Source: Bacteroidaceae bacterium
Lineage (GTDB): Bacteria > Bacteroidota > Bacteroidia > Bacteroidales > Bacteroidaceae
Direction of reading: 5' to 3'
Length of the DNA: 56,513 nt
Assembly: GCA_017416805.1 (NCBI GenBank)
Contig: JAFQBB010000017.1
Span: 1 to 56,513, forward strand
In this document: positions 8,471-53,098 of the stretch, piece by piece
Position numbering within the stretch: the first letter of the stretch is position 1
How the letters are laid out: every line of letters starts with the position of its first letter
Program-made: the position numbers and the translations under genes
Notes under the pieces: generated by a model
What the model was told of the DNA's origin: nothing
Seen by the model: only the letters and a program-made list of their open reading frames with translations
Databases searched by the model: none

Positions 8471-8620
8471 CTGCCATTATTCTGCCACGCTGTTGACAGA
8501 AGACTGCCAAGCCACTTGTAGCATCCTGCCAAGCCACTTGTAGTGTCCTGCCAAGCCACCTGTAGCGTCCTGCCAAGCCGGTTGTAGTCTGCTGCCAAAA
8601 GAATGGCAGAAGAGTGGCAG
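8471..8620. repeat. Array A: phased CTGCCA repeats, 22-bp period
   Basis: CTGCCA occurs at 8471, 8482, 8504, 8526, 8548, 8570 and 8592, i.e. one 11-bp step then five steps of exactly 22 bp. The complement TGGCAG follows at 8604 and 8615, again 11 bp apart, so the array ends in mirror symmetry. The 22-bp unit is CTGCCAAGCCA plus CTTGTAGCATC and contains the dyad CAAG-CCA-CTTG. It starts 23 bp downstream of the alpha-2-macroglobulin stop codon and fills most of the 325-bp gap before the efflux operon. No ORF or T-run is present. Confidence 0.85.
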
Positions 8621-8642
8621 AGCGATAAGAAGCGACATGCCA

Positions 8643-11600
8643 TTAATATGCTCGGACTGCGAACTGCATCCCCGCTGTGTGCCCGACAAACTCCGGAGCA
8701 TAAGCGCATTGTACGGAGGCAATGCCAGCCTGATACTGTCCGATGCGGTCAATACGGAAGGTCTCCTCTAATGTACAAACACCCTTGGGAAGGTGGTCGA
8801 TAAAATAGGACGTAGAGGCATCCTTCACCGAACAATAATGACCGACACCTCCATGGAAACGGTATCCGGAAGCGCTGTTTACAGGCTCAAGGCAAGCGGC
8901 ACGGCCATTCTTTATCTGCACGAAGTCCATAGCCCGGTCAGTACGGATAGTGAGTTGCGAGATGATTTTATCACCGACGTGCAGTGTTGTCTTTTCCGTT
9001 ACAGGCTCCCAACTCTTTTGCCCGTTTGTCATTCGTTCTACCATCCATGTGCGTTCGATGCTCAGCGGTTGGTCAAGGGCTTGTCCGTAAGCGGTTTCCG
9101 TCCGTCCGGTATAGGTCGAGGTGACACTCTTCATCCCCTCCAGGTATTGGGCATAAACGGCACCCCACGCCAATCCGTTGTCACTCTTTTCTATAGTGGC
9201 CTTGCGGGGAAGGCGCTTCAATTCTTCTGTGGTGTAGGTATGCTTGAGATAGTCCATACCTGCTATGGACGGAAGGCTTGATTTGACCATCTTCCCATCA
9301 ATCATCAGCGTGGTATTCTTTTCGGCATTCAACAATGTGGGGCTTTGTACAAGCAGAGCATGTATGGCATCTACGGTGTTCAGCGGGTTGTCCCAACTTT
9401 GTGCCTGCTTCTGGATGAGCAGCCATTGTTTCATCTGCTCGATGCAAAGAGTGTCGGATTTGGCAAAAGCCAACGCTTCGATAGCGGCCACTTGGGTAGG
9501 GATACGTTGGTTGCGCCATCCGAAGATGATTGACGGATTGTCGAAGAAACGTCCCATCTGTGGTGTATAGGTGGAGTATTCTTTTAATGAAGAGAGTAAA
9601 ACACCAGCTTCTTTATTCATGCCGTAATGTTTCAACACTATAGATGCTTTGGCCTTTCCATAGGGCGTAAGTCCATGTAATTGCCCAGGCAAAAGCTTTA
9701 CCATATATTCAACAGCTTTTTGCATTTCTTTGTCGTACCTCTTGCCATTCAGCGCTTGGCTGCACAGGTAAGCCAGTGCTTGCTCCGAAGGGCGGACCTC
9801 TTCATCTTTTCCCTCGCAGGCTTTCAAGTGACGGTATTCGTTCATCAGTTCTTGATTGAGAAACTCGGTGGCTTGTGCCATCATGCTGCGGGTCGTGTAG
9901 TCTTGCTCGTCGCCTGTCAAATGGATTATGCGCTCCATCAGTTCTACAATGTATGTAGTCACGTAGCGACTGCTTTTCATCCCTTTGCGCCAGCTCCATC
10001 CGCCATCCTCGTTTTGCAGACTTTCCAATTTGTCCAAATAGCCTGTGATGCGTTGCCTGCTGTTCGTCTTGTCGAAGAGCAATGCCAATTGCCGTTTCTG
10101 TGCCGCCTCATCGGTGGCCTCGGTTACCCATGGAGTTTCATCAAGCAACAGGGTTTTCAAATTCTCATTTTTCTGCAGGTTACTTGATAAAACTTGGTTG
10201 CCGTTTGTTTCGGATATCCAGTTATCATATACCGCTTTGATTTCAGGTTGCGATTGGGCTATGTATGAAGCCATGCTGTGTGCATACCAGGCTGCAGCCC
10301 ACGAGAAAGCATCTTCACTGGTTGGAGTCGCAACTGTTGGCAGGGCCTGTATGGCCAACCATGCAGGATTGCCCGTCATCTCCACGGTCAGCCTATGGTC
10401 ACTTGCCGTAGGGCTATGGTGGTTAAAGAGATGGCCAAGTGACTCTTCCACCTTGCCAGGCCCATCCAACATCAACGGCAGGCTCTCTGTTATCCAAACT
10501 TTATCGGTCAGTATGGGCAGATAGCGTTGCTCGCCATCACTGAATCTGTCACCTTCAGCCACAATGCGACAAACAGGCAGGGAGACAATATTGTCCTTTA
10601 CCGTGAAGGTGAAAGTCGTTGTGGCGGATTCCTTTGCTTGGACATTGAATTTCGCTTTACGGGTCAGTATCACCCGTTCGGTCATCGGGTCAATCAACTC
10701 CAAACGGGCAGTACCTTTTATCCCCTCATCTGTCAGATTGCTGATTATGGCACTGATGGTTGTCTCGTCGCCCGAACGGACAAAACGTGGAAGGTTGGGC
10801 TGTATCATAAACTCACGTTGGGCAGTGGCAAAGTCCTCAAGTGTCGCATACTCCATTTGTCGGGAATGTGCCAATGCACGGAAGTGCCAGCGCGTCAAGT
10901 TGTCAGGTAAAGTAAAGGCAATCTTCACATGGCCCGTTGAGTCTGTGCGCAGATGAGGCTGAAAGAATGCCGTCTCTGTAAAACCTTCGCGTAGTTGCAT
11001 ACCTTCGGGTAGAGGCTCTGCATCCCTCTTCGCTCTTTGTGTGCCGGCAGCAACCTCTTCCAAAACCCCATTGGCTTGGGATTCTATAATATCTGAATCA
11101 GTCCGAGTGTTGAATCTGGCATTCGTGGCAGTAGTCATGGATAAAGCTCTGCTTGCACCTACCATCAAGGATTCTTCTTTGGCACGTTTGCGGAAGAGTG
11201 CAAGATTGAAGTTGAAATACCGTTCGGCAAAGCCATCGTATCTCCATTGGACAGGCACCCGTTTGGTCAACAGGTCAAAATTGATGCGGGTATCCGGATA
11301 ACGGAAGCCAAGGCCAAACCATCGGGGAGAGCCATATATCGTACGCATAAAATTGACGCCAAAGGACCATGATGGCTGCTTGCCCAACTGGTTCAGCGCG
11401 GTATCATACATGGAGGCCAACAGTTCTGCATCGGCTGGGGAGCCATCGGGGTGGGTCACATTCAATATCCATTCCTCTTGAATACCGGGTTTCAACTTGT
11501 TGCGGAAAGTTTCCCACTTCAATACTAATTTCTTTTCGGATTCTTTCTTGGCTAACCTTTGGGTATAGTTTAAGACGCTTCCATTCTTTACATACATGAC

Positions 11601-14507
11601 ATTGACGTACATACAGTTGCCGTACTCGGGCTGGTAGTCGAAGGTGAAAGTCTGTACAGTATCAGACATATAAAAACGGCGGCTATCAATACGCTTCGTC
11701 TCGGAGAAGACATCCATCAGGATATAGGCATCCTTCTCACGTGTACCGAATTGCAGGCGGGCAGGCTGATTGGTATCCACTTTTGTTTCTAACCAGTTGA
11801 CCCAGTCGGTTGTGCCTGAAGGAACTTTTGTCTCATTCTCAGCATAGAGGGTAAAGGCTTCGAAACTTACTACACTATCCTTTTTCCCTGCAAGAGTTGT
11901 GGTGGCCACAATCTTATAGTAAGCCGAAGGCAGTTTGTCGATAAAATCAAAAGCCGTTTGTTGATTGGAGGTTGTTCTTCCCTGATGAACCAACTTGCCT
12001 TTCTTTTCATCTCCATCCTCATTTGTCTGGTAAATGCGGTAATCCACTTCCGTGTCCACTTCTTCCCCACTCAAATTCGTAACCCTGAATGTCAGTGGAT
12101 GAGGTTTCCCTTTCATCCAATGGGAGTTCGCCTGAATAATACCCAATTCTAACGGAATACTGCTCAGAGTCAAGCTTGTCCGCGCCTCCTGGCTCTCGCC
12201 GGAGAGTGACGTTACCGCCCCCGTAATGGCATATTCATTTCGCCACCAGCACAACATTTCTTTATCGGGATGTTCTTTCAGATAGATTTTGATGCAAAAA
12301 CGACCGTCACTATCTGTAACAGCTTCTCCATCCATCATTTCTTCACCATCCCGATAGTCTGTCCATCCGCGCAACCATCCGTAATAGTTCTTGCGCACGT
12401 TATAACTTACTTTGCCTTCTGATACCGGCACACCGCTATAGGTAAGGGCTTGCCCCGTCAATGTGACCGTATCACCAATGGCGTATGCCGTTTTCACCTT
12501 ATCAAAAGTTACTTCAAAGGTAGGAAGTTTGTATTCTTCCATACGGAAAAATAGTATTGTGCTTTGGTGAGATTCTCCTCCGAGAACTTCTATTCTGTAT
12601 GAACCGTTCAACCCATCCGTAGGCAATACAAACTCTGCGTTGAATGAACCGAATTCGTTGTTCTTCACCATTCTCTTTTCGATGATTTCTCCTCTGGGAT
12701 TCTTTAAAGCCAGTTCGAGTTCCTCTCCTTTGGCAGCCCATATACTATCATTGGGTAACAACCAATGGCTTATACCTTTTATATATATAGTTTGTCCCGG
12801 TCGGAAAAGGGTTCGGTCAGAAAACAAACGGGTATAAAATCTCACTTTCCCATTCGGTTGAGTCCATTTTGAGTGATAGTTTTTAGGCACATAAGGCATC
12901 GTATTGTTTGCAACGGTGCTCGCACGTACAAGGTCGTATGATGGTTCCATTTGCATAGTGACGCACCCATATCGGTCCGTCCGTTTGCTCTCTATGGGGA
13001 TAATCTGTTTCTTTTTATGGTCATATCGTGCTGTTTGCAAGGTCGCATCCGCAATAGGATGCCCACTTCGGACATCGAGCACTGCATATTCGACAAGGTC
13101 ACCTGGCAAACTTCGTGATACCAATTTGTAGGGAGATACGTAGAAATAACTCAGATTGGAGCCTTTCCCATTGGCGATAGTCTCTATCAAATAGGCTCCG
13201 GCCTCTTTGGGCAAGGGCAGAGGCACGATAGTATCTTGTTGTCTATACTCCTTATCGCGCAGAAGGGTGTATTTTTGCTCGCCATAAAATTTACTGTACT
13301 TTTTCAATCCCTCGGCATTATAAGTGTATTCGCGGAGTGTGTCCAATGGGCAGTTGATGCGACGTAGCCAGACGGTAAAGCCGTTCAGATTCCGATGATA
13401 GACACGCAAATTGGCTGTGTCGCCAGGATAATGGTGAAGCGAAGCACCTTGCACAAACAACATTGGTTGGAGAATCATTTTCTCCATGTTATGCAACTGG
13501 TTGATAGCTCCATAGCTTGGATAATGGGTTATACCCTCGCGCAGAATCGCCAATGCTTCAGCATCTTTACCTTGTTGTCTGTAAATGGTGGCTATGTCAT
13601 AGCACAAACTTCCACAAAGGTCACTATTCTTGAATGTTTCTTTCAAGCCATAAAACAATTGCAAACATTTGTCGTTATCGCGGGCATATTGGGGAATGAC
13701 GTTCAGCCTGTTTTGCTCCATACTGAGCCATCCTTCACCCTTATCCGGTGTCTCCAACAAAGTCAACATACGTTGGAAAATACGCATTGTTTGGGCAGGA
13801 CAATCATAAGCAGAAACAGCAATGAGCGTATCGCGACGAAATTGATTGTAATCCAAATTGAATGCTTTCCACTCTGTTTGCTTATAGGCACGGCTCAATG
13901 TTGGCTCCAACTCTTTTATGCCGAAAGCCGCCCGTCGGCCAATAAGGTGCATCAAGTCATGCTGGTACATCTCACTCCATTTGCCAGAGTAGGTAATGGG
14001 GGCATAACTGAGGGTAGAATATCCTTTCAACTTCTCCAATTGGCTGACCGATGCGATGAAATGGTCAAAAGAGCGTTGGTTATACATCAGTTGTGTCCAT
14101 TGACTCATATCTTCCGGCAGTTTCTCGATGACCTTATTGTCATATCTTCCTTGGGCAGAATATGCATAGATGCTTCCCAGTAATGAATGCAATACAGCGG
14201 CATCGTTGATAGGGGTAATGGGGTCGGCCACCCATTTTTCCAATCCGGCTATATCAACATAAAAACTGTCTGTACTCAGATGGGTACGATATGCCATTGC
14301 CGTCAGATAAGCACGCATCATCTGTGGCGCAAGGCGTTCGTTTTGTGCTTTACGGAAAATCTTTTGTGTAATCTCTATAGCTGTTTGGGGTTTGTCTTCT
14401 TTTTCAGCCAAGTTTACTTCTTTCCACAATTGATTATAGCTTTGGGCGGAAAGCAAGAAAGTTCCCATTATAAAGAACAGTAAAAAGAAACGAACCTTCT
14501 GTTTCAT
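8643..14507 (-). CDS. Large alpha-2-macroglobulin family protein
   Basis: 1954 residues with a signal peptide (1-21, LLSAQ). Residues ~25-345 form an alpha-helical N-terminal region. MG-type beta domains follow, including an MG2 signature (LFRPGQTIYIKG, ~567-578) and LPTFEV (~661). The A2M domain (FFQPHLRTDSTGHVKIAFTL, ~1181-1200) precedes an alpha-alpha thioester-like domain (~1390-1700). Where thioester family members have C-x-E-Q, this protein reads TPTSEDAFSW (~1395), so it has no thioester and cannot covalently trap proteases that way. Bacterial relatives are periplasmic or outer-membrane protease baits. An ECF sigma gene precedes it. Confidence 0.92.
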   Translation of the reverse strand: MKQKVRFFLLFFIMGTFLLSAQSYNQLWKEVNLAEKEDKPQTAIEITQKIFRKAQNERLAPQMMRAYLTAMAYRTHLSTDSFYVDIAGLEKWVADPITPINDAAVLHSLLGSIYAYSAQGRYDNKVIEKLPEDMSQWTQLMYNQRSFDHFIASVSQLEKLKGYSTLSYAPITYSGKWSEMYQHDLMHLIGRRAAFGIKELEPTLSRAYKQTEWKAFNLDYNQFRRDTLIAVSAYDCPAQTMRIFQRMLTLLETPDKGEGWLSMEQNRLNVIPQYARDNDKCLQLFYGLKETFKNSDLCGSLCYDIATIYRQQGKDAEALAILREGITHYPSYGAINQLHNMEKMILQPMLFVQGASLHHYPGDTANLRVYHRNLNGFTVWLRRINCPLDTLREYTYNAEGLKKYSKFYGEQKYTLLRDKEYRQQDTIVPLPLPKEAGAYLIETIANGKGSNLSYFYVSPYKLVSRSLPGDLVEYAVLDVRSGHPIADATLQTARYDHKKKQIIPIESKRTDRYGCVTMQMEPSYDLVRASTVANNTMPYVPKNYHSKWTQPNGKVRFYTRLFSDRTLFRPGQTIYIKGISHWLLPNDSIWAAKGEELELALKNPRGEIIEKRMVKNNEFGSFNAEFVLPTDGLNGSYRIEVLGGESHQSTILFFRMEEYKLPTFEVTFDKVKTAYAIGDTVTLTGQALTYSGVPVSEGKVSYNVRKNYYGWLRGWTDYRDGEEMMDGEAVTDSDGRFCIKIYLKEHPDKEMLCWWRNEYAITGAVTSLSGESQEARTSLTLSSIPLELGIIQANSHWMKGKPHPLTFRVTNLSGEEVDTEVDYRIYQTNEDGDEKKGKLVHQGRTTSNQQTAFDFIDKLPSAYYKIVATTTLAGKKDSVVSFEAFTLYAENETKVPSGTTDWVNWLETKVDTNQPARLQFGTREKDAYILMDVFSETKRIDSRRFYMSDTVQTFTFDYQPEYGNCMYVNVMYVKNGSVLNYTQRLAKKESEKKLVLKWETFRNKLKPGIQEEWILNVTHPDGSPADAELLASMYDTALNQLGKQPSWSFGVNFMRTIYGSPRWFGLGFRYPDTRINFDLLTKRVPVQWRYDGFAERYFNFNLALFRKRAKEESLMVGASRALSMTTATNARFNTRTDSDIIESQANGVLEEVAAGTQRAKRDAEPLPEGMQLREGFTETAFFQPHLRTDSTGHVKIAFTLPDNLTRWHFRALAHSRQMEYATLEDFATAQREFMIQPNLPRFVRSGDETTISAIISNLTDEGIKGTARLELIDPMTERVILTRKAKFNVQAKESATTTFTFTVKDNIVSLPVCRIVAEGDRFSDGEQRYLPILTDKVWITESLPLMLDGPGKVEESLGHLFNHHSPTASDHRLTVEMTGNPAWLAIQALPTVATPTSEDAFSWAAAWYAHSMASYIAQSQPEIKAVYDNWISETNGNQVLSSNLQKNENLKTLLLDETPWVTEATDEAAQKRQLALLFDKTNSRQRITGYLDKLESLQNEDGGWSWRKGMKSSRYVTTYIVELMERIIHLTGDEQDYTTRSMMAQATEFLNQELMNEYRHLKACEGKDEEVRPSEQALAYLCSQALNGKRYDKEMQKAVEYMVKLLPGQLHGLTPYGKAKASIVLKHYGMNKEAGVLLSSLKEYSTYTPQMGRFFDNPSIIFGWRNQRIPTQVAAIEALAFAKSDTLCIEQMKQWLLIQKQAQSWDNPLNTVDAIHALLVQSPTLLNAEKNTTLMIDGKMVKSSLPSIAGMDYLKHTYTTEELKRLPRKATIEKSDNGLAWGAVYAQYLEGMKSVTSTYTGRTETAYGQALDQPLSIERTWMVERMTNGQKSWEPVTEKTTLHVGDKIISQLTIRTDRAMDFVQIKNGRAACLEPVNSASGYRFHGGVGHYCSVKDASTSYFIDHLPKGVCTLEETFRIDRIGQYQAGIASVQCAYAPEFVGHTAGMQFAVRAY

Positions 14508-14543
14508 AATGCATCAAATGTTTAGACAAGTTGAATTTGCTTT

Positions 14544-14551
14544 CAAAAGTA
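14544..14551 (-). promoter_or_regulatory. -7 element of the alpha-2-macroglobulin promoter
   Basis: TACTTTTG on the minus strand, 37 bp before the start codon. A TTTG lies 16 bp further upstream, closer than the usual 19-20. Confidence 0.55.
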
Positions 14552-14671: not shown

Positions 14672-14719
14672 TCTTTATTCATGAAAATAGGTATTTGTAT
14701 TTTGTAATGTTTCTTTTTG

Positions 14720-22452: not shown

Positions 22453-23265
22453 ATGAAAAAGTTATTTGCAATCGTTGCAGTAATGGGTTTGATGACCTTT
22501 GGTCTTACCCAGTCAGTAATGGCTCAGGAAGAAGCCGCAGCTTCTACTGAAGTAGTGGATTCAGCTGCTGTTGATTCAGCTGCTGTAGCAGAGGAGGCTC
22601 CTGTAGCAGAAGAAGCTCCTGTAGAAGAAGGAAGTATTCACAAAGAGTTGAAGACTAAGTTTATCGAAGGTGACGCAGGATTTATGTCATTGGTAGCCGT
22701 TGCATTGGTTATCGGTTTGGCTTTCTGTATCGAGCGTATCATCTATTTGAGCCTTGCAGAAGTTAACACAAAAAAATTGATGGCTAAGATTGAAGAAGCT
22801 CTTGCTAAGGGCGATGTTGAAGGTGCTAAGACCGTATGCCGTAACACTCGTGGTCCTGTTGCCTCTATCTGCTATCAGGGTCTGATGCGTATTGGTGAAG
22901 GCATTGACGTTGTTGAGCGCTCTATCGTATCTTACGGCGGCGTTCAGACAGCTTACCTTGAGAAAGGTTGCTCTTGGATCACATTGTTCATCGCTATGGC
23001 TCCGTCACTCGGATTCTTGGGTACTGTGATTGGTATGGTGGCATCATTTGACGCTATCGAGGCTGCAGGTGATATCTCTCCGACCGTTGTTGCCGGTGGT
23101 ATGAAGGTGGCCTTGATTACTACTATCTTCGGTATCGTGGTAGCTTTGATTCTTCAGGTATTCTACAACTACATTCTTTCTAAGATTGAGGCTTTGACAG
23201 CTGATATGGAGGACTCTTCAATCACATTGCTCGACCTCATCATGAAGTACAACCTGAAGAAGTAA
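22453..23265 (+). CDS. exbB: ExbB/TolQ/MotA-type proton channel subunit
   Basis: 270 residues. A signal-like N-terminus (1-24, SVMAQ) and an Ala/Glu/Val-rich periplasmic extension (~25-65) precede three membrane helices (~74-95, ~177-200, ~213-240). The conserved core IAMAPSLGFLGTVIGMVASF forms the channel. With ExbD it powers TonB. First gene of a four-gene operon. Confidence 0.95.
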   Translation: MKKLFAIVAVMGLMTFGLTQSVMAQEEAAASTEVVDSAAVDSAAVAEEAPVAEEAPVEEGSIHKELKTKFIEGDAGFMSLVAVALVIGLAFCIERIIYLSLAEVNTKKLMAKIEEALAKGDVEGAKTVCRNTRGPVASICYQGLMRIGEGIDVVERSIVSYGGVQTAYLEKGCSWITLFIAMAPSLGFLGTVIGMVASFDAIEAAGDISPTVVAGGMKVALITTIFGIVVALILQVFYNYILSKIEALTADMEDSSITLLDLIMKYNLKK

Positions 23266-25790: not shown

Positions 25791-25865
25791 AAAGAAAACG
25801 GTTCTTCTGCTATTTCACAAAGAACATGAATCTTCTGCTATTTAGCTGAAATTAGGGAGAAATAA

Positions 25866-25943
25866 GAACATAAGTTCAAATGGTCATGAACATATGTTCG
25901 TTGGCACATGAACATATGTTCAGAGGCACTTGAACATATGTTC
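25866..25943. repeat. Array B: GAACATATGTTC palindromes, 22-bp period
   Basis: GAACATAAGTTC at 25866, then perfect palindromes GAACATATGTTC at 25888, 25910 and 25932, each step exactly 22 bp. The 10-bp spacers are also related (GTTGGCACAT, AGAGGCACTT). A further GAACATGA at 25822 is 44 bp (two periods) before the first. It lies in the 370-bp gap between the nitroreductase stop (25790) and dnaA, downstream of both genes. The rest of the gap holds a terminator (26067-26110) and no gene. Confidence 0.88.
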
Positions 25944-26066
25944 ATTTTTTGGGGGTGTTTTCTACAAAAGCAACATGCTTTCCAACTAAATTACAAAAGA
26001 AGAAAAATAGTAGTGTCCAAAAAGCCAAAGACAGCCTTTTCCTTCAGACACTATAGATTCATTAGC

Positions 26067-26110
26067 AAAGCATCCTAAGATAAATATGCTCATTTATCTT
26101 AGGATGCTTT
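26067..26110. terminator. Bidirectional terminator between nitroreductase and dnaA
   Basis: AAAGCATCCTAAGATAAAT and its exact complement form a 19-bp perfect stem with a 6-nt loop; A/T runs on both sides suit termination in both directions. Confidence 0.88.
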
Positions 26111-26160
26111 TAATGGGGGGGATTCCTGCTCGTCTTTTCCTATCGGACACGAATTCCCCC

Positions 26161-33907: not shown

Positions 33908-34036
33908 ATGCATGACAATCGGAGGACAAAATAAAACGGCTGATTTTTTCAGTTTCCCAATTGTTTTTCATGAGCAAGCGCCCTTTCAAAAGATTGCATC
34001 ACCTGTGCACGGGATGGCATTCAGCCGTACACTAAT

Positions 34037-34120
34037 TTGCATTTCCCAATGCACGATTGTGCATTACTCTGTGCACAGCAGTGCATTCAGCTATGCACAA
34101 CTGTGCATTGTGCCATGCAC
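34037..34120. repeat. Array C: RTGCAC-N4-GTGCAT repeats, 22-bp period
   Basis: TGCA cores lie at 34038, 34050, 34060, 34072, 34082, 34094, 34104 and 34116: spacing alternates 12,10,12,10,12,10,12, so every second core repeats at exactly 22 bp. Units read ATGCAC-GATT-GTGCAT, GTGCAC-AGCA-GTGCAT and ATGCAC-AACT-GTGCAT. Phased but degenerate cores can be followed back to GTGCAC at 34005. The array ends 5 bp before the stop codon of the GH28 gene (34126), i.e. directly downstream of it. Confidence 0.85.
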
Positions 34121-34125
34121 AATTC

Positions 34126-35778
34126 TCACTTCGCCAATTCCTTGTCAGTTGCTACTGCAATCACCCGATTCTTCACATACTGAAAGTTTTCCAACTCTGC
34201 ATTCTTCACTCCCTTCATTACAACGTAGGGCACTTCATCAGCCTTATCCACCTTCATGTTGCTCAGCTTGATGTCTTCCACATCCATCAGCACAATGGGC
34301 GGGCGCTTGTCCTCATTGATGGTTTCGAGTGTCACATTGTCAATGGTCACACCACGCGCATGGCTGATGAAAAGGCCGTATGCAGGCAATATGCCATGCG
34401 ATGAAGGTTCAGGATAGCCGTGCTCCATCTGTGGCACATCATAGGGGTCGCGTTCTTTCTTTTCGTCAACAGCCTGCGAACGGTTCCTACGGGTGTCAGG
34501 CGTACCGTTGGCTGCAGAGTTTGTGCGGGTAAAGAAGGAATTGGCACCACGCTGCAGTCTTACGTCCTCCATCGTCAACCCGCCACGATACTGGATGTGG
34601 ATGTTGCTCAAGGTAATGTCCTCAATCATGTGTCCCTCCAAACCGAAAATCATGGAAGCATAGCGGCAATCGGCATCCTTCACCACAATGTTGCTCAGCT
34701 TCACCCGTCGGATAACAGAGAAGGGTAATTCTTTCGGCCCGCGTGCACGGTTGCCCAAACGGACGTAGATGGGCGAGTTGCAAATGTCGCGCATAGCAAT
34801 GTTGTCGATGGTAATATCTTCAATGATGGCTCCATCCACCGTCTCCAATGCCAATCCACGGCAATGGTCGAAGGTGCAATTGCTGATGGTGATATTCTTG
34901 AATCCTCCGTTTGACTCAGTACCCATCTTGATACGTCCTGTCGGGCCGTCACGGTCGGGAGCGGCAGTGATGGTCTTTTGATAAGTACCGTCAAGCATTG
35001 TACCGGGGTCATAACCTGATACATGACAATTGGTGATGGTCACATTTTCCGTAGCCTTGGCATATCCCAATCCATAAGAGCATTTCAGCACAATGGCATC
35101 GTCGTTGAGCGTGTTTACCTGACAGTTGGAAACACGCACATTGGCACAACAGTCAATATCGAAGGCATCGCGGTTGGTGTCGCACCGCACATTGTCAATC
35201 GTCAGATTGTCCACTCCCGTGAGCAACATGGCAAAGTGTCCGCACTTGAGCATGCTGATGTCACGGATAGTCACATTGCGGCACTCTTTCAGAGCTATAG
35301 CCTTATTGGCAGCCGGGTGGCCGTTTTGTTTTGCTTGTCCGCGGGTGATACCTTCCGAACCGTCAATCAATCCGAAGCCTTCGATGGTAATATCATGCAA
35401 TCCGATACCCCATATCAGAGAGTTCTTCCAATGGCTGTGCCCAAAGTCCTGATAATCATCCGATAGGTTTTCTTCGGGCAGGTCATAGTGCATCGAATCA
35501 GTAGGGACTGCCGCCTTCAGCACCGCACCATGATCCAGATAAAGGGAAATGTTATTCTTCAAATGGATGGAATAGCTCTGATAGATTCCTGCAGGGAAAT
35601 AAACCGTACCTCCGCCTTTCTCTGATGCAGCTTCGATTGCCGCATTGATAGCAGGACTATCAATATGAGAGCCGTCACCCTTAGCCCCATAGTCCTTTAC
35701 GTTGTAGTATCCTCCCGTAGTAGCCCACGAACATAAGCTCATCATCAGAGCTGTCATCAGTGATAATAGTTTTTTCAT
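34126..35778 (-). CDS. Glycoside hydrolase family 28-like (polygalacturonase/pectin-type) protein
   Basis: 550 residues with a signal peptide (1-19, SLCSWA). The pectate-lyase-like N-terminal motif NVKDYGAKGDGSHIDSPAIN is followed by a right-handed parallel beta-helix with repeated DNVT/NITISN-type turns. The catalytic region has NRDAFDIDCC and LNDDAIVLKC (the Asp pair), as in GH28. Expected to hydrolyse galacturonan or similar side chains in the periplasm or at the surface. Follows the GH26 gene by 25 bp. No SusC/SusD pair is near. Confidence 0.88.
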   Translation of the reverse strand: MKKLLSLMTALMMSLCSWATTGGYYNVKDYGAKGDGSHIDSPAINAAIEAASEKGGGTVYFPAGIYQSYSIHLKNNISLYLDHGAVLKAAVPTDSMHYDLPEENLSDDYQDFGHSHWKNSLIWGIGLHDITIEGFGLIDGSEGITRGQAKQNGHPAANKAIALKECRNVTIRDISMLKCGHFAMLLTGVDNLTIDNVRCDTNRDAFDIDCCANVRVSNCQVNTLNDDAIVLKCSYGLGYAKATENVTITNCHVSGYDPGTMLDGTYQKTITAAPDRDGPTGRIKMGTESNGGFKNITISNCTFDHCRGLALETVDGAIIEDITIDNIAMRDICNSPIYVRLGNRARGPKELPFSVIRRVKLSNIVVKDADCRYASMIFGLEGHMIEDITLSNIHIQYRGGLTMEDVRLQRGANSFFTRTNSAANGTPDTRRNRSQAVDEKKERDPYDVPQMEHGYPEPSSHGILPAYGLFISHARGVTIDNVTLETINEDKRPPIVLMDVEDIKLSNMKVDKADEVPYVVMKGVKNAELENFQYVKNRVIAVATDKELAK

Positions 35779-45996: not shown

Positions 45997-46106
45997 CTTT
46001 ACATCTATGTGTAAAGCTCTTGACATATATATGTAAAACTCTTGACATTTACATGTAAACGGCTTTACATGTTATGCGTAAAGGCTTTTACATATGTGCG
46101 TAAATT
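45997..46106. repeat. Array D: CTTTACAT...GTAAAG palindromes, 22-bp period
   Basis: Five units begin CTT at 45997, 46019, 46041, 46063 and 46085, exactly 22 bp apart. Each unit is a palindrome of the form CTTTACATnnATGTGTAAAG with 2-bp spacing. Ends GTAAA lie at 46011, 46033, 46055, 46078 and 46100, with one more at 46111 (half period). It lies between the converging cyclo-ligase (stop 45969) and MG2-protein (stop 46186) genes. No T-run; the A/T-rich arms would be weak RNA hairpins. Confidence 0.88.
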
Positions 46107-46185: not shown

Positions 46186-48681
46186 CTATTCTTCCAGATT
46201 ACCCATCAGGCCATCTGCCGTGACGGTAGCAGCGCTTACCTTCATTTGCTTGCAAGTGGGACTGTTGTAGAAACTGATGGTAGCTTCTCCATTACTGTCA
46301 GTCTCTACATTTGGATTCCAGTAAAGGGTGCGACGGTAGTCCTTTTCGTCGGGCAACAGGGATTCACTGTAGTCGGGCATGTAGAATTGTCGTTCGGGGG
46401 AGTATCCTTGCAACTTGGTATGTCGCTCGCCTTTCCTGTCTTTTCCCATACGGTTAAAGTACTTGTCCTTGACAAAGATAGTTATCACTACATGGTCGAA
46501 ATTTTCTGTAGAAAGAAGGTGCCTGTCCGGATTTTCTGCCATTGCTCTCATGATACAATGTGGTTTGTCGCTGATGGTTACAGCTTCCACTTCGTCTATA
46601 GAGAGGACATTAAGGTTGATTTCCCTTCTTCGTGGAACGAACTCATAAATGATATCTTTCCCTTTGTAGGTGTTACTGTACTTGTCAAAGTATCTGTTCC
46701 ATTCGTGTAGCCAATCGGTCACGTACATCAGGTACTCTTCGCCCGTATCGTCCATACGTAGCAGTTCCTCTTCCATGTCATAGATTATGTTCTGCCAGCG
46801 TCGGAATGCCCGCTGTTTCCATCGTTGTTTGGCTTCCACTTCCACGGTAGGTAGCAAGTTATCCCAATGTTGGGCAAACTCCTCGGCCTGTAATGTGTCG
46901 GGGGATAGTTCTATGATGGGACGGACCAGTGCGTTACGGTTCTCCGTTTCTTTGAAAAGGAGGGATTCTATCGGGTAGAGGGCGCGTCCTTGTGGAGCGA
47001 AGTCCTTGTCCTGTTTTACGGTCATCTCCTTACGTTTGCCATCCTCTTTGGTGGTGACATACATGTTCCATTTGCCCGTGAAGTCTTCAGCCTGAAAGGC
47101 AAATCTTCCCAAAGAATCGGTCATGGCCTTTCCACGTTTTACCTGTCCGCTACTGCTCCAAATGTTGACGTTGATTTCTACATTGTCTTTTACGCGATTC
47201 CGGAATACGGAACGAAGTTCGCCTTTCACTACGATGCCTTCTTCGATAAAGTGCTTGGGATTAAACTCCTTGGGACGGGCCATTTGTGCCCAGTCGTAGC
47301 GACGGTATCCGTGGGTTCCCATCAGCAGGTCCAAAGCTGCGCGGTGTTTCTGGTCATCGGCCTCGAAGTAGTAGTCTATATCGTGGATAAAGCCTTTCAG
47401 GTCTGATCCCAACAACAGGTTGGCTTCGGCTTGCGAGGCTGTACGGTTGTGTGGTGTGTCATAATCGGCATCGCGTACCGATAGGGAGAAGTTGGTCTCT
47501 ACTGGCCGGTTGTCGCGATCACTCACCAAGAAGTCCATCTCCACTATCTCGCATGGGGCATAGTACTCCTTGTTTGCCTTGTAGCTCATAAGGATTCCTT
47601 TTTGTGGACGGATAAATGCCAGGCGTTCGGCATGGATATGTCCCTCTGTGTCGAAGAGCGTGATTTGCAGTACACCGCCTTGTAATCTTTCTTTGGGGAT
47701 ATCCACTGTAGCCTTTTCTTGTTCGTCCCATCGTACTTGTCCGAACTGTACAATGCTTCCGCGCTCCATGACACTGAGTCCCACTTCGCGTGTTTCATTG
47801 CCTCGTCGGGCCAACTTTACAGTCAGATGGCTATCCTGTTCTTCCATGCTCAGGGAATATCCTGTAGGTCGCGTGGCTGGCAAGTCGAAGGTGTAGTTGT
47901 GCCCGTTCCATTCCACTTCTGCTTTATATGTCTCTCCCATTAGGGGAGTCAGGAGAGTCTTTCCCATTCCTTGATGGATACTTTTGAGAGGAGCGATTTT
48001 CTTTCCGTGGCTGTTGGTGATGACTCCCTCCACTTGGGCGGCTTGTCCCTGTTTGTCTGTAGCTTTGAAGTATATAGCCGATGTCAAGCCTTCTGTAAGG
48101 TGTCCGCCTTCGGGAAAGAATATCAAGTTCAGCTTGTCTGTATCGGGTTGCTTGTCACGTTTGTAAGGACTACGTTGCGTGTGAGGGAATCGGGTGATGG
48201 TAGGTGTGTCGTACATCTCAATCCCCTCTTCTTGTGGTGCATCAAAGATGGGGAATACGCGTGAGAACATCAGCTCCTTGTCCCAGTTGAGCATCATGCG
48301 GGTGTAGGCCCGCACTTCATAGAAACCGGCATGCAGCACTTCTGTCAGAGGCAAACTTCCGTGAGCCAGACCCTTTTCTATCTTCAACTTTTGCGAGGTC
48401 AGTATGCGCCCTTCTGGGGTAAGCAGTTCTACATGGAGTACCCGGCTCATGTCTGAGGCTTCCATGGTGGTAGAATTCATCACGTATGCCTTGAACCAGA
48501 TTGTTTCACCCATAAAGTAACCGGTATTGTCGAAGTGCAGATATACTTTCTCCTGTGGGTATAGTTGGTTGAAAGCATTGATGTCTTTCACGAACCGGGC
48601 CAGTGAGTCGGCCGGTGTCTGTGCCACAGTTGCCGATAGTGCGGTCAGTGCGGCAATGAGGATGCTGTTCAGTCGTTTCAT
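46186..48681 (-). CDS. MG2-domain (macroglobulin-like) exported protein
   Basis: 831 residues with a signal peptide (1-20, SATVAQ). Starts with QEKVYLHFDNTGYFMGETIWFKAY, the MG2-type beta-sandwich seen in Bacteroidetes proteins; further MG-like domains follow (~195-400) and a carboxypeptidase-regulatory/TonB-plug-like C-terminal half (~500-800; VKGELRSVFRNRVKDN, SIDEVEAVTISD). There is no beta-barrel, so it is not a receptor. It follows the M56 sensor gene by 38 bp, so it is probably its co-expressed partner or substrate. Confidence 0.82.
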   Translation of the reverse strand: MKRLNSILIAALTALSATVAQTPADSLARFVKDINAFNQLYPQEKVYLHFDNTGYFMGETIWFKAYVMNSTTMEASDMSRVLHVELLTPEGRILTSQKLKIEKGLAHGSLPLTEVLHAGFYEVRAYTRMMLNWDKELMFSRVFPIFDAPQEEGIEMYDTPTITRFPHTQRSPYKRDKQPDTDKLNLIFFPEGGHLTEGLTSAIYFKATDKQGQAAQVEGVITNSHGKKIAPLKSIHQGMGKTLLTPLMGETYKAEVEWNGHNYTFDLPATRPTGYSLSMEEQDSHLTVKLARRGNETREVGLSVMERGSIVQFGQVRWDEQEKATVDIPKERLQGGVLQITLFDTEGHIHAERLAFIRPQKGILMSYKANKEYYAPCEIVEMDFLVSDRDNRPVETNFSLSVRDADYDTPHNRTASQAEANLLLGSDLKGFIHDIDYYFEADDQKHRAALDLLMGTHGYRRYDWAQMARPKEFNPKHFIEEGIVVKGELRSVFRNRVKDNVEINVNIWSSSGQVKRGKAMTDSLGRFAFQAEDFTGKWNMYVTTKEDGKRKEMTVKQDKDFAPQGRALYPIESLLFKETENRNALVRPIIELSPDTLQAEEFAQHWDNLLPTVEVEAKQRWKQRAFRRWQNIIYDMEEELLRMDDTGEEYLMYVTDWLHEWNRYFDKYSNTYKGKDIIYEFVPRRREINLNVLSIDEVEAVTISDKPHCIMRAMAENPDRHLLSTENFDHVVITIFVKDKYFNRMGKDRKGERHTKLQGYSPERQFYMPDYSESLLPDEKDYRRTLYWNPNVETDSNGEATISFYNSPTCKQMKVSAATVTADGLMGNLEE

Positions 48682-48719
48682 GGTTGCTCAGTATATGATT
48701 TCTTACTCTTCATTCTTCA

Positions 48720-51700
48720 CTAATAAATCACTCTTCCCTGTTTCTCCCGATCAGGAGAGGTGTATTTGCTACGTACCGTCAGTCCCTGATAGCGTCTGGC
48801 ACCGTCGGTGTTGTGGCGGCGTTGCATACCTCCCTCGAACAGGTCAACAGTCGTCACCTTCTCGGGCAGGGCGGGGAATACCAGTACAAAACGGATGTAC
48901 TCTCCCTGCTGGCCGACTACCCAGAAGTGGGTGTCCAGTGGGAAGTGCTCTACGCCGGCAATCATGTAATGGTTTCCCGTAGTGGGGTCAACCAGCATCA
49001 TGTCATCGCTGAAGTTGAAGAACTCCCACTCCCAACGTACCTTGTAGGAAACCGTCACGTAGGTGCATCCCTTGCCGCGATAGATACGGTAGTGGTCCTT
49101 GTCGTTGTGAAACACTTGCTGGTAGGTGGTGTACACATTGGTATAGGCGGGGAAAGAGTTCTCGTTCTGTACATTGTAGTCGGCCGCTTTGGGACGTCTT
49201 AGGGTAGGAACGCTGTTGTCCGGCTTGTCGCTCTTCTCCACGGGGTGGGCGCAGACAGATTGCAGAGACTTGTCCCTAATGGTCTTTATGGATGCTTTTT
49301 CGAGGCTCTTCACCTTGTATGTCTGGTTCTCCTTGTGTGGGAAGTTCAGGGTCACCTCCTTCACTTTGCTTCTCAAGGGTGGGAACACATAGGTCACCTG
49401 CAAGGGAACCTCGCGGTAGTTGTTCACCTCCACGCTCTGCACATCGTTGGCTATTCCCTCTACCCGGCGCAGCATGTACTTGTCACCCGTGGCTGTGTCC
49501 GTCAGATACATATCGCGGTGCAGGTTGATGATTTCCTTGTCGTATTTCGGACATTCGTAGCAGATGAGGTGTGTCTCCTCTGCATAGCGTACCAGGTGGT
49601 ACTTGGGCGTTAGCTGCTGGTATTCGCTGAAAGTAAAGGGAGCCGTGGGCAGATGAACATCCTGCATATGGCGCTTTTGAGGTCTGGTTGAAACTTTTCC
49701 CTTATTGTAGTTTGGTGATGACGGGTCATCGACAATCCCAAAGTTTGTGTTTAATGCATAACCGTAAGAATTGGGGTGGGTATTGTTCTCAAACTCCCAG
49801 GTGGCATTCTTATAGGCAGCCTTTATGACAATCTTCAGTTGGCGTTCCGGTGGGAAAAGCTTTCCGTGTTGTTTGAGTACGGCTTCCACTTGGGGGCGGA
49901 TTTCTTTGTTCAGACGTGCACGCCCCTCCTCCATCTTGAGTAGGGCTGCTTTTAAATCGTTGCTCCTTTTTTCCTTATACTCCTCGTATGTAGGGATAGC
50001 TCCGGGAGGTATAGGCTCGGTCTTGAGGGCTTGTTGGAACTCCTTTTCAGTCATGACGGGCTTCTGTGCCATCTTGTTCATATCGAACCAACCTCCGAAG
50101 AACGCCTGCAATGCTTCGTCCTGCTCTCTCAGCGAAGCGTCGTTGGTGATGGCTGGTTCGTTTGCTGAGGTGTTGGTTGCGGATTTGTTCCGTCTGGCCG
50201 CTATCTTCATTTGTGTTAGTTCTTCTTCTGTGACCTTCATCGAGGGGAATATTTGCGATGAATGGGGTTTCTTCACGAATGTCCATGTCTTGTTGAAAGC
50301 CTTGGATTTCACGGTCATATTGAAGTGCTTGTCGCGCGGGAGTATCCATCCATGTTGCTTGAGCAGAGCCTCCACTTGGGGGCGGAGTTCGCTGTTCAGC
50401 TTGTGCAACCATTTGGACATGATATTGATTTGCAGAATGATTGTACCATTCCATCCCTCGTTATAATCTTCGTATGTGAAGTCTTTGGGGAAGTCCTTAT
50501 ACTTTTCGTCAAATCCCGACTCGGAAAGATGCACGGCATTTTCGCTCAAGTCGAACCATTCGGACATGAAATGCAGCAACGCCTCGTTCTGGGCTTCGTA
50601 GGAATTGTCAATGACTGATTCGTCAATGACTGGTTCCTCAGAGATTATTTCTGTTGTGAAGGTTGTCATTGGAACATCCACCACCTCACCGGGCTTTAGA
50701 GGTGCTTCTCGAATGGAGTTGGCGATGGCCGTTTGCATTCCTGTCATTCCTTCAAGCATTATTGTTTCTATAGCCTTCTTTATTTCACGTGCGTTGCTGT
50801 TGATACTGTCTAAAGAAGGTATGTTCTTGTTGGGCATTGTTTTCTTCAATTCTTCGTATTGTTCGGGAGTCAATTCCCGCACAGAAGTCGCGGTGCTCAG
50901 TAATTGTACCACTGCATTCGTATTCAAATTGCCTATTTGGGAGAGCACTTCGGGTAAGTAGTCTCTTGGATTTATGGCTTTGGCTTGATGCCATTGGCCG
51001 CTGTCGGCAGGAACTGTTTCTTCCTTTTGTTCCTTTACTGGGGATGGATGTGTAATGTCTTGTTGTTCAGATATGGCGTAACTATCTACTCCTTCCCCAA
51101 GGGAAAGGCTGGGAAGGGGGCTCTGTTCCTTTACTTTATACACCGTCTCCGCTTCGCCCACCGTGCAGCACATCAGGGCCACCACGAGCAACATCCATGC
51201 CGCTGTTCCGGCCTTGGCCAGCGAAGTCATGCGGTGGTTGGTGCTTTGCAGCATTTCCACAAAGCGGCGGCGGATGAAGGAGTGGTTGAATCCGTTGGCT
51301 ATCACTATGTCGCCGTGCAATACCTCCTCGATGAGGATGGCCTGATAGGCATAGACATCCTCGCCCGTGCCAAGTACTTCGCTGTCAGCCTCGAACTCGT
51401 GCACGTTGCGAAGCTCCTGTCGTGCCCACCATAGGAAGGGATTGAACCACAAGAGACGGGTGATGGCCTCGGCCACCCACACGTCCACGTAGTGGCGGTG
51501 CAGGATGTGTGCCCGTTCATGGGCGAGTATCATGCGGCGCTGTGTCTCCGTCAGGTTTGTAGGCAGGAAGACGGTACGGTGGAACGAGAAGGGGGCCTGT
51601 ACCCCTTCGCCCGTCAGAATGCGGATGTCCGTCTCCTTCCCCTCCTCAGTGATGGATGCCTCCTTGCGCAGACGGCGCACCAGCACCAAGTTCACTAAAA

Positions 51701-52160
51701 AGGGAATGCAGAACAATAGGATAATGAGGGCATAGAGCAGCAGAGCAAGATCTCTAAGACTCCACTTCTGTTCCTCCCCAAAGGAAGAGAGTGAAATGCT
51801 TTCTCCTTTAGAGTGAGTGGCGCTATTGGCTTTTGCTTCAATGGGTAGGTTAGATTGGAGTTCAGTATCTGCCACCTCTTCTTTGGTAAGGTTCGCGAAA
51901 GGAGGTGCATCTACGCCCCTTCCTTGAGAGAGGATGGGGGAGGGGTTGCTTTCCGCCGTCACTTCCACTACCACCGGTTCCGGCTTGTACACTTCAACCT
52001 GTAGCAGTGAGATGGCCAATGCAACGATGGGCATAGTGAGCAGATACATGCGCTTGGAGCGATAGGTGGCTTGCTTGCGCCACACGACCCAATAGAGGGC
52101 CATCAGCAGAGCCGATGCCAATATGAAACGGCCTGCAAGGAGTAAGATAGGGTAGGTCAT
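48720..52160 (-). CDS. BlaR1-like M56 metallopeptidase sensor with very long duplicated C-terminal region
   Basis: 1146 residues, about twice BlaR1. Membrane helices ~7-27, 40-54, 138-160 and 320-336. Zinc site HERAH at 214-218 and HEFEAD at ~254-259. The extracytoplasmic part contains two tandem duplications: unit 1 at ~521-632 and ~678-794 (ELRPQVEALLKQHG / EIRPQVEAVLKQHG), unit 2 at ~854-942 and ~1024-1110 (MYLTDTATGDKYML / MMLVDPTTGNHYMI). No penicillin-binding domain is present. Residues ~71-87 and 346-362 are encoded by dispersed GC-rich repeats. Expected to sense an envelope signal and cleave the BlaI-type repressor encoded upstream. Confidence 0.88.
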   Translation of the reverse strand: MTYPILLLAGRFILASALLMALYWVVWRKQATYRSKRMYLLTMPIVALAISLLQVEVYKPEPVVVEVTAESNPSPILSQGRGVDAPPFANLTKEEVADTELQSNLPIEAKANSATHSKGESISLSSFGEEQKWSLRDLALLLYALIILLFCIPFLVNLVLVRRLRKEASITEEGKETDIRILTGEGVQAPFSFHRTVFLPTNLTETQRRMILAHERAHILHRHYVDVWVAEAITRLLWFNPFLWWARQELRNVHEFEADSEVLGTGEDVYAYQAILIEEVLHGDIVIANGFNHSFIRRRFVEMLQSTNHRMTSLAKAGTAAWMLLVVALMCCTVGEAETVYKVKEQSPLPSLSLGEGVDSYAISEQQDITHPSPVKEQKEETVPADSGQWHQAKAINPRDYLPEVLSQIGNLNTNAVVQLLSTATSVRELTPEQYEELKKTMPNKNIPSLDSINSNAREIKKAIETIMLEGMTGMQTAIANSIREAPLKPGEVVDVPMTTFTTEIISEEPVIDESVIDNSYEAQNEALLHFMSEWFDLSENAVHLSESGFDEKYKDFPKDFTYEDYNEGWNGTIILQINIMSKWLHKLNSELRPQVEALLKQHGWILPRDKHFNMTVKSKAFNKTWTFVKKPHSSQIFPSMKVTEEELTQMKIAARRNKSATNTSANEPAITNDASLREQDEALQAFFGGWFDMNKMAQKPVMTEKEFQQALKTEPIPPGAIPTYEEYKEKRSNDLKAALLKMEEGRARLNKEIRPQVEAVLKQHGKLFPPERQLKIVIKAAYKNATWEFENNTHPNSYGYALNTNFGIVDDPSSPNYNKGKVSTRPQKRHMQDVHLPTAPFTFSEYQQLTPKYHLVRYAEETHLICYECPKYDKEIINLHRDMYLTDTATGDKYMLRRVEGIANDVQSVEVNNYREVPLQVTYVFPPLRSKVKEVTLNFPHKENQTYKVKSLEKASIKTIRDKSLQSVCAHPVEKSDKPDNSVPTLRRPKAADYNVQNENSFPAYTNVYTTYQQVFHNDKDHYRIYRGKGCTYVTVSYKVRWEWEFFNFSDDMMLVDPTTGNHYMIAGVEHFPLDTHFWVVGQQGEYIRFVLVFPALPEKVTTVDLFEGGMQRRHNTDGARRYQGLTVRSKYTSPDREKQGRVIY
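51084..51122. repeat. Dispersed GC-rich repeat inside the M56 gene (copy 2)
   Basis: ATCTACTCCTTCCCCAAGGG then AAAGGCTGGGAAGGGGGCT. In frame it encodes SPLPSLSLGEGVD just after the last membrane helix. Closely similar to 51909-51950, in the same orientation and frame. Confidence 0.7.
51760..51815. repeat. Degenerate GC-rich repeat inside the M56 gene (copy 3)
   Basis: TTCCTCCCCAAAGGAAGAGAG with flanking CTCCACTTCTG. Encodes SKGESISLSSFGEEQKW in the loop between helices 2 and 3. Weaker match than the other two. Confidence 0.45.
51909..51950. repeat. Dispersed GC-rich repeat inside the M56 gene (copy 1)
   Basis: ATCTACGCCCCTTCCTTGAG then AGAGGATGGGGGAGGGGTTGCT. Encodes SNPSPILSQGRGVD in the periplasmic loop after helix 2. 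Confidence 0.7.
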
Positions 52161-52239
52161 ATAATTATGAGTTTTGAGTTCTGAGTTTTGTCTTTTTTAT
52201 AAGAGATGGTAAAGTATAGATTTCTGTCATATGTTTTTG

Positions 52240-52300
52240 TCACCCAAAAGTGTGAAAATGACGTTTGGGGTGCAGATTCACCCGAAAGTGGGCTGCCATT
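52240..52300. repeat. Possible degenerate array F downstream of blaI
   Basis: CACCCAAAAGTG (52241), inverted CGTTTGGGGTG (52262) and CACCCGAAAGTG (52279), then TCAC at 52300, 22 bp after TCACCC at 52278. Spacings are irregular (about 21, 17, 22), but the position just after the blaI stop matches the other arrays. Confidence 0.35.
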
Positions 52301-52716
52301 CACTCTTTTTCTCCAGGAGGGTTAGGGCGGGACTCTTTCTGGTTCTTCCTCAGCAACGCTATAATGTGTTCTACTTCTTCTGCAGCCAATCGCTCACGTT
52401 CGGCAAAGAAGGATAGTAAGGCCGAGAAGGAACCTTTGAACAATGTGTTACGAGTCTCCTCCATAAATCCTTGTGTATATTCTTCGCGTGTCATGATGGG
52501 GGTATAGACGTGTGCCTTACCGTTTCCCGGTTTAGCTTCAACAATGCCTTTGCTGGTCAATACGCGCATCACGGTGAGTGCCGTGGTATAGGCCGGTCGT
52601 GGTTCGGGTAACATTTCCAACAGTTCGTTGACGGTAGCCTCCCCCTTGTCCCACAAGAGGTTCATCAAGTGTAGTTCCGACTTGGTGAGGCTTCGGTGTT
52701 TGGTGTCGAGGTTCAT
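52300..52716 (-). CDS. BlaI/MecI-type transcriptional repressor
   Basis: 138 residues from ATG 52716 (MNLDTKHRSLTKSELHLMNL). Winged helix (~8-75; GEATVNELLEMLPEPRPAYT recognition region) and a dimerisation helix region (~85-138). In the Bla/Mec systems it represses its own operon until the M56 protease cleaves it. The M56 gene follows by 139 bp. The last residues (RPNPPGEKE) appear to be encoded by another GC-rich repeat copy (52305-52334). Confidence 0.93.
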   Translation of the reverse strand: MNLDTKHRSLTKSELHLMNLLWDKGEATVNELLEMLPEPRPAYTTALTVMRVLTSKGIVEAKPGNGKAHVYTPIMTREEYTQGFMEETRNTLFKGSFSALLSFFAERERLAAEEVEHIIALLRKNQKESRPNPPGEKE

Positions 52717-52751
52717 GGTTTTTGAGTTTTGAATTCTGAGTTTTGAGTGTT
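52717..52751. repeat. AACTCAAAA-type leader repeat before blaI
   Basis: On the minus strand ACTCAAAACTCAGAATTC then AAAACTCAAAAACC directly before the ATG. A near-identical leader (ACTCAGAACTCAAAACTC, 52163-52190) stands directly before the M56 ATG. Both lack a Shine-Dalgarno sequence. Confidence 0.6.
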
Positions 52752-52767
52752 TCACTCTTATCGGTGG

Positions 52768-52775
52768 CAAAGGTA
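52768..52775 (-). promoter_or_regulatory. -7 element of the blaI-M56-MG2 promoter
   Basis: TACCTTTG on the minus strand with TTG 20 bp upstream; the BlaI-type operator should overlap or follow it. No clear TACA-N-TGTA operator is visible. Confidence 0.65.
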
Positions 52776-53002
52776 AACGGTGCAGAAATACTTTGCAACT
52801 ATTTTAATAGTAGATGAAATGTTTTTAAGGCTTGTTAAGAGTCTGCTTTGCGTGAATGGCTATTCAGTGAATTAGTTTTTAGAACAAAGAGAAGCTGAGG
52901 GATTGATAATAGTCGTTTATGTGATGACTGTTCAGAGACAAATCCGAAATGCCACACTCTAAAATCGGTTTGGCCGTTGCTTTACTTGATTTGGCTTAAC
53001 AG

Positions 53003-53098
53003 AAAAGTTTAATCAGCACTGATGATTATGTGATTAGCAGTGGTGATTATATAAACATCAGTGCTGATTATATGATTAGCACTGATGATTAAACTTTT
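53003..53098. repeat. Array E: GATTA/CAGCACTG repeats, 21-bp period
   Basis: GATTA at 53024, 53045, 53066 and 53087, exactly 21 bp apart, with AGCA(C/G)TG or inverted CAGTGCTG between them at the same phase (53015, 53036, 53057, 53078). The whole is enclosed by perfect inverted ends AAAAGTTTAATCA (53003-53015) and TGATTAAACTTTT (53086-53098). It lies in the 476-bp gap between DUF721 and blaI, beyond the DUF721 terminator. Bases 52776-53002 show nothing else. Confidence 0.85.

Follow-up and report, generated by a model that had tools for sequence, protein, structure and literature searches.

Background

The closest described kind of element to the one considered here is the miniature inverted-repeat transposable element (MITE) with internal repeats, represented by BrickBuilt of Porphyromonas gingivalis. 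In its published description BrickBuilt is a MITE that contains a minisatellite of 23 nt and is present in 19 copies (PMC4596501); the same source cites, from a genome report, direct repeats of 22, 23 and 41 nt in P. gingivalis W83. We analyzed five intergenic arrays of short tandem units in a 56,513-bp stretch of DNA (hereafter the window), i.e. contig C40 of the 3.157-Mb, 64-contig assembly (G000) of a Bacteroidaceae bacterium, a genome which is 91% complete. The arrays are numbered 1 to 5 along the window (Table 1). Arrays 1, 2 and 5 are members of dispersed families, those of arrays 2 and 5 being called family 2 and family 5. In named records, proteins related to one encoded in the window are mostly assigned to Bacteroidaceae, and many come from ruminant guts.

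BrickBuilt, as described in that source (PMC4596501), resembles the present arrays in several respects: it is intergenic and dispersed, codes for no protein, occurs in the same bacterial order, has a unit of 23 nt, close to the 21-24 bp found here, and carries leader and tail arms with small inverted ends. The W83 repeats likewise share unit length and bacterial order with the arrays. The differences concern unit number (1 to 22.8 in BrickBuilt, whereas almost every copy of families 2 and 5 has four) and sequence, BrickBuilt forming one family where many are found here. A 23-nt unit in variable number is not seen in family 2 (22 bp) or family 5 (21 bp), whereas other families here do have a period of 23 bp. 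The terms "palindrom" and "helical" are absent from the main text of the BrickBuilt report. Its terminal inverted repeats (TIRs) match those of IS5-family elements (GAGACC...), whereas such ends are at chance level in the window: the IS5-like TIR GAGACCTTTGCA gave 5 matches with 2 mismatches against 6.0 expected, and all of these are more than 400 bp away from any array. Membership in BrickBuilt by this TIR was consequently rejected. A second comparison concerns the repetitive extragenic palindromes (REP), bacterial interspersed mosaic elements (BIME) and REP doublets forming hairpins (REPIN) that are associated with the REP-associated Y1 transposase (RAYT). These are also clustered extragenic palindromes of many families; the present arrays differ from them by a fixed short period, mostly four units, and the lack of a matched Y1 gene in this genome (compared with the description in PMC3733652; see also PMC3116915 and PMC2817692). 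Apart from the P. gingivalis papers, no description of a shared-period, sequence-diverse array class was found among the matches listed, which covered few subscription papers.

A class of arrays sharing a period

The original prediction described five intergenic arrays spaced at 21-22 bp. A lag-identity scan of the whole window (66-bp scanning window, at least 44 identities) recovered all five at lag 21 or 22 in the expected places, array 1 being additionally seen at lag 44, and no array at lags 20-24 appeared in 100 Markov shuffles. The scan was extended to 1.589 Mb of G000 read by stretches (about half of the genome), where 104 arrays exceeded the threshold. Of these, 94 lie outside heuristic open reading frame (ORF) calls and are distributed as follows: 16 at lag 21, 39 at lag 22, 14 at lag 23, 3 at lag 24 and 22 at other lags. 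An array with a 20-24 bp period was present in 60 of the 442 intergenic regions tested (at least 130 bp long) and in none of 4,420 shuffled regions; five of the 60 hold heptamer-type arrays only. No noncoding array was found in 200 kb of Escherichia coli K-12.

The elements form many families unrelated in sequence. BLAST linkage joined arrays into families that have between 2 and 17 members and left others as single copies, and motif labels split 64 arrays into 24 groups. In 11 relatives (1.12 Mb) we found 28 noncoding arrays, 20 of them at lag 22, 4 at 21, 1 at 23, 2 at 44 and 1 at 14; the stretches read from G001 contributed one, at lag 44. Twenty-two of the 25 arrays with lags of 20-24 had no match in the 1.59 Mb of G000, and the three that matched at E <= 1e-4 all came from G012. 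No arrays were present in the stretches read from G019 and G022 (same family; 100 kb each) and from G010 (same genus; 80 kb). The 21-22 bp class is thus real in this genome and in relatives, and the proposal that geometry is conserved while sequence diverges holds at both levels.

Dyad symmetry reached p <= 0.05 (uncorrected) in 46 of 64 arrays; heptamer-based 21-bp arrays (ACTCGTA type; 7 or 8 of 72) were excluded from the dyad and context counts. The number of four units given by the general scan is partly forced by the scan window, and direct counts in families 2 and 5 were used instead. The period varies by family from 21 to 24 bp, so strict same-face phasing cannot apply to every family. 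The idea that the dyads of all arrays face one side of the DNA therefore had to be abandoned as a general statement. A related explanation, close to one put forward originally, is that the shape of the phased dyads is recognised, independently of sequence, by a single nucleoid-associated factor. A step of 21-23 bp common to unrelated sequences is what such a factor would need. No common A+T pattern was seen around the dyads, however, periods of 21 to 24 bp rotate the sites by differing amounts from family to family, and the palindromes of family 2 are conserved in sequence; we consider a single shape-reading factor quite improbable.

Family 2: dispersal of a four-unit core

The 17 family-2 copies found through clustered palindromes all have four palindromes with spacings of 22, 22 and 22 bp. 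Six more long matches agree with the same layout of four palindromes, with 43-47 of 48 bases each and 12 mismatches in 288 palindrome bases, a fit which assumes a fixed 22-bp grid. The full four-unit copies read in G000 number 23; shorter matches at C6, C13 and C56 are outside this count. Variation is very unevenly distributed along the core: 1 change in 612 bases for palindromes 1-3 (pi 0.003), 10 changes in 204 bases for palindrome 4 (pi 0.070), and 57 minor alleles in 510 bases for the three 10-bp linkers (pi 0.187), whose length is constant. The contrast in singletons between palindromes 1-3 and linkers is significant (Fisher p 1.4e-6). Linkers of one array are only 0.40 identical to each other, while linkers of the same number are 0.81 identical across copies. 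Linkers unrelated within an array and alike by index show that the four-unit core was dispersed whole. Near-invariant palindromes 1-3, with linkers free in sequence and not in length, speak for DNA-level docking that is sequence-specific and fixed in spacing, and make slippage less likely; the near-fixed palindrome sequence of units 1-3 points to recognition family by family.

Family 2 has two properties of MITEs, the first shared with family 5: it is a short non-coding element in many dispersed copies, and one of its sites, that of array 2, is without an array in relatives. According to BLAST coordinates the gap between the nitroreductase gene and dnaA, where array 2 lies, is about 200-300 bp shorter in G003, G006, G008 and G010, and in all three relatives in which the gap was read (G003, G006 and G010) it contains no array. 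Array 2 is thus an addition in this lineage or has been lost in all compared relatives. TIRs are visible in the family-2 alignment and in the better-kept copies. The ends of array 2 itself are TIR-like (TCTTCTGCTATTTAGCTGAAA / TTCCAACTAAATTACAAAAGA), and do not exceed shuffles. A search of phages with element 2 gave no match.

The family-2 palindrome presumably resembles the Gram-positive LexA/SOS box. Palindromes of this type number 77 genome-wide, and 55 of the 56 in the half examined are clustered; no PF01726 match was found in this genome, and the LexA box reading was rejected. A recurring flank like GTATGTTAACGATTTCCGTTGAC was observed beside some family-2 copies in G000, and a similar one stands beside two family-5 copies in G006 (flanks of L002, L007 and L235, L236 in all); this sequence is possibly the end of another mobile element.

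Family 5: persistence, divergence and unit similarity

Among the family-5 copies read, which come from six genomes and are part of a longer list of matches, 22 of 23 have four 17-bp palindromes at 21 bp. Nearly all full copies of families 2 and 5 therefore have four units at a family-specific spacing. The ortholog of array 5 in G005 has both flanking genes aligned, with flanks 79-80% identical: one element has persisted at one locus across two species. In a subfamily of five copies the core TCGWCGA replaces GCASTGC in 18 of 20 units, with both arms of the palindrome changed. The inverted arms that surround the core are degenerate in the alignment of 22 copies (outer arms of array 5: AAAAGTTTAATCA...TGATTAAACTTTT). 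One arm searched in 15 genomes revealed no recognisable parent element, and a plasmid search with element 5 gave no match.

Units were also supposed to be homogenised within arrays. In family 5, within-array similarity is 0.816 against a null of 0.728, above all 1,000 shuffles, when both subfamilies are included; it is slight in the main subfamily. The proposal is thus partly supported. Ordinary minisatellites that arise and are kept uniform through replication slippage or unequal exchange would account for this similarity, for the head-to-tail units of constant period, and for the variation in number seen in a three-unit family-5 copy and in five CTTCACA arrays of 4 or 5 units each. Such a process does not agree with the unit number, which is four in all 23 full copies of family 2 and in 22 of the 23 family-5 copies read, with linkers unrelated inside an array and alike by index between arrays, or with the same period across unrelated sequences and genera. 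An origin as minisatellites is accordingly very improbable, and slippage, advanced as one process that could build arrays, is not supported as the main one; in family 2 the linkers show dispersal of whole cores.

Genomic position of the arrays

Of 61 arrays, 28 lie between convergent ORFs, an enrichment relative to 96 of 499 (p 2e-6), and 5 lie between divergent ORFs, a depletion relative to 131 of 499 (p 7e-4). Three contig-edge arrays were dropped from these counts, which use heuristic ORF calls and take same-family copies separately. The original observation that arrays lie downstream of stop codons is borne out in the window, where each of the five is at most about 80 bp from an ORF stop. 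It does not extend to proximity genome-wide: for 56 arrays the median distance to the stop codon was 100.5 bp, against 102 bp for random placement in the same gap, and hugging of stop codons was rejected as a general rule.

Dispersed extragenic palindromes depleted between divergent ORFs are also what REP-type elements made by a RAYT would look like, and one weak PF01797 match each (27-30 bits) was found in G005, G012 and G014, three genomes with arrays or families. In G000, G002, G006, G008 and G011, which show arrays or array families as well, PF01797 has no match, and the units here are paced at 21-23 bp. With no Y1 gene matched in this genome, a REP/RAYT origin is hardly credible and was rejected.

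Folding and mismatch asymmetry

The enrichment between convergent ORFs raises the question of whether the arrays act as RNA, in the form of tandem hairpins that would serve as bidirectional terminators or as stabilisers of mRNA 3' ends. Folding compared with shuffles is strong in arrays 2, 4 and 5 (z -8.4, -6.5 and -8.4), moderate in array 3 (z -3.2) and not clear in array 1 (z -1.5). Palindromic arrays fold by construction, however, and pairing in RNA does not need an exact 22-nt step. Array 2 scores as terminator-like on the + strand, with a T run, but no terminator-like site was found in array 4, the other array scanned. Arrays 2 and 5 moreover adjoin separate strong hairpins that could handle termination. 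Searched against Rfam at gathering scores, the window gave three tRNA matches only and no known structured RNA at the arrays.

Mismatches within the palindromes give a similarly divided picture. In family 5 the GT/AC counts are 4/20 in unit 1, 13/19 in unit 2, 26/6 in unit 3 and 27/2 in unit 4, i.e. each half carries the mismatches that would be tolerated as G.U in an RNA reading that half last. This left/right asymmetry could stem from an RNA role or from the inverted symmetry of the element. Pooled over 17 motif groups, G.T/A.C mismatches do not differ between the halves (48/48 left, 35/47 right, p 0.37), in a test limited to arrays that have at least three units and no weak axis, one family-5 array among them. 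Neither is G.U favoured on the gene strand (29 against 43, pooled motif groups). Family 2 leans the opposite way, with 14/13 left and 4/13 right. Outer arms do not co-vary within the elements of families 2 and 5 (p 0.17 and 0.97), and selection for a whole-element hairpin was rejected on that ground. Taken together, a role of the arrays as RNA is unlikely.

Proposed docking rows in MITE-like elements

Sequence-specific docking of a dimer at the DNA level is favoured by several features: unit number hardly varies, linkers are fixed in length and free in sequence, palindromes are conserved, and mismatches are mostly symmetric between the strands. The explanation that we prefer, at a little short of even chances, is that each array forms the core of a short intergenic element of MITE-like type, without coding capacity, and is a predicted docking row for the binder of its family. 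The core of each family would be bound by a sequence-specific dimeric DNA-binding protein whose footprint may span roughly two turns of the helix, which would bring adjacent dimers into contact. Families of 23 and 24 bp would rotate over four units, and contact between neighbours probably explains the spacing better than same-face phasing does. Binders that share an architecture would account for the spacing common to the families, and a separate binder for each family for their different sequences. The elements may be dispersed by a transposase acting in trans, and their depletion upstream of genes may reflect selection against insertion into promoters. Once bound, a row could block readthrough between convergent genes or serve the mobility of the element.

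Several observations weigh against docking rows in MITE-like elements. Neither of the two candidate families for a transposase or binder, PF01797 and PF01726, is matched in this genome; no target-site duplication could be established, and TIRs beat shuffles in a minority of single arrays only. Eighteen of the 64 arrays, array 1 included, lack a significant dyad, and the test is not perfectly specific, since 9 of 32 control arrays pass it. The tight palindromes of family 2 could partly be due to recent dispersal or conversion, the search having favoured kept copies; the remnant C46:19084 retains one palindrome (30 of 48 bases), and looser relatives keep 43 of 48 bases in G002, 37 in G006, 36 in G012 and 25 in G013, the one in G006 having three recognisable units and the one in G012 being decayed. 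In family 5, the copy C46:59387 consists of three decayed units with altered spacing (it was left out before the count of 22), the units of the array-5 ortholog differ more (54 of 68 bases identical) than the adjacent right part (94%), and the main subfamily shows a slight homogenisation of units (0.817 against 0.802, p = 0.016). Finally, the mismatches of the five arrays of family ATATATTTC are asymmetric like those of family 5 (2/15 against 8/5, p 0.007), in the direction expected of an RNA role.

Arrays of the window and other repeats

Array 1 has CTGCCA starting at 8471, 8482, 8504, 8526, 8548, 8570 and 8592, and TGGCAG at 8604 and 8615. It adjoins the stop of an alpha-2-macroglobulin-like gene (8643-14507, minus strand) and has matches in C63 and C61 of its own genome, as well as a single match in G002 and another in G006. 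A dyad had been attributed to every unit of the five arrays. This is supported in arrays 2, 3 and 4, which pass the profile dyad test, and in array 5 (p = 0.001; tested separately, a short ORF overlapping it), whereas the units of array 1 are not palindromic (p = 0.43). The units of array 2 start at 25866, 25888, 25910 and 25932. Array 3, initially placed at 34037-34120, is longer than that (Table 1); it is preceded by the stop of a GH28-like gene (34126-35778, minus strand), and it has weak matches in 2 of the 14 other genomes of the genus. Units of array 4 start at 45998, 46020, 46042, 46064 and 46087, which makes the final step 23 bp: the spacing predicted to be exactly 22 bp (21 bp in the last array) is correct in general and fails at this step. 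Array 4 lies between convergent genes for a 5-formyltetrahydrofolate (5-FTHF) cyclo-ligase and an MG2-domain protein, and has no match in the 14 other genomes of the genus.

Table 1. Arrays, elements and neighbouring hairpins of the window (positions in the 56,513-bp stretch)
Feature	Position	Strand	Description
Array 1	8471..8620	none	CTGCCA half-sites on an 11/22-bp grid, inverted TGGCAG at end
Array 2 element (family 2)	25831..26000 (ends approximate)	none	four GAACATATGTTC-type palindromes at 22 bp, 25866-25943
Hairpin beside array 2	26067..26110	none	symmetrical, terminator-like, between the convergent genes of array 2; -28.9 kcal/mol, z -6.8
Array 3	about 33995..34125	none	about six TGTGCAT-N-ATGCACA-type units at 22 bp
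Array 4	45997..46106	none	five TTTACAT-N-ATGTAAA-type units, steps of 22, 22, 22 and 23 bp
Family-5 full element	about 52910..53190	none	degenerate inverted arms; from alignment of 22 copies
Array 5 core (family 5)	53003..53098	none	four 17-bp palindromes at 21 bp
Hairpin beside array 5	53119..53152	none	strong, separate; GAGCCGCACACAAA...TTTGTGTGCGGCTT; -23.4 kcal/mol, z -7.2

The hairpin region beside array 2 (26042-26115) has matches in C32, C3, C46 and C20 of G000. At one of 11 loci (L062:8352-8439), a 22-bp array of type CCAAA...TTTGG follows an ortholog of the array-4 gene; its sequence is quite unlike array 4, and the downstream gene was not matched, which leaves orthology of the gap unproven. 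No Pfam family was matched by the ORF next to array 5. Array 5 stands upstream of a penicillinase-repressor-like regulator (PF03965) and the adjoining M56 peptidase protein (PF05569), both in 48720-52770.

Other repeats were seen. The lag scan of the window gave a sole extra repeat, of lag 18, at 22547, and a 183-bp tandem repeat (1663-2137; 2.3-2.6 copies, 80-84% matches) is present inside an ORF at 1416-2453 on the plus strand. A separate class of 7-bp-based arrays (ACTCGTA / ACTCATA / ACTAGTG) has lags of 14, 21 and 28, several of them near ORF ends (e.g. L055:5012-5155, that is G000:C3:165012). A dispersed family with a 16-bp period, of GTGCTAATGTGACAAT type, occurs at C3:82495, C20:10475, C63:33002 and C19:57728 of G000.

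Significance

In its wider form, docking by family-specific binders would define, in Bacteroidaceae, a class of chromosomal docking sites not described before, each a row of about four dyads spaced by about 22 bp. Paralogous binders would share one quaternary geometry with diverging specificities, arrays and binders would co-evolve, and the rows would act as insulators or roadblocks between convergent genes. We regard this as possible and rather doubtful. The near-complete switch from GCASTGC to TCGWCGA in one family-5 subfamily suggests that array and binder could co-evolve family by family. It is unusual for intergenic repeats of bacteria to retain their architecture as the sequence changes, as these do in many families and several genera. 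DNA-binding proteins forming a class with a common footprint and changing specificity are predicted from this. Four-unit cores could be used as baits in pull-down experiments, with spacing mutants as a built-in control. Arrays of this kind in metagenome-assembled genomes should not be taken by default for slippage minisatellites or terminators.

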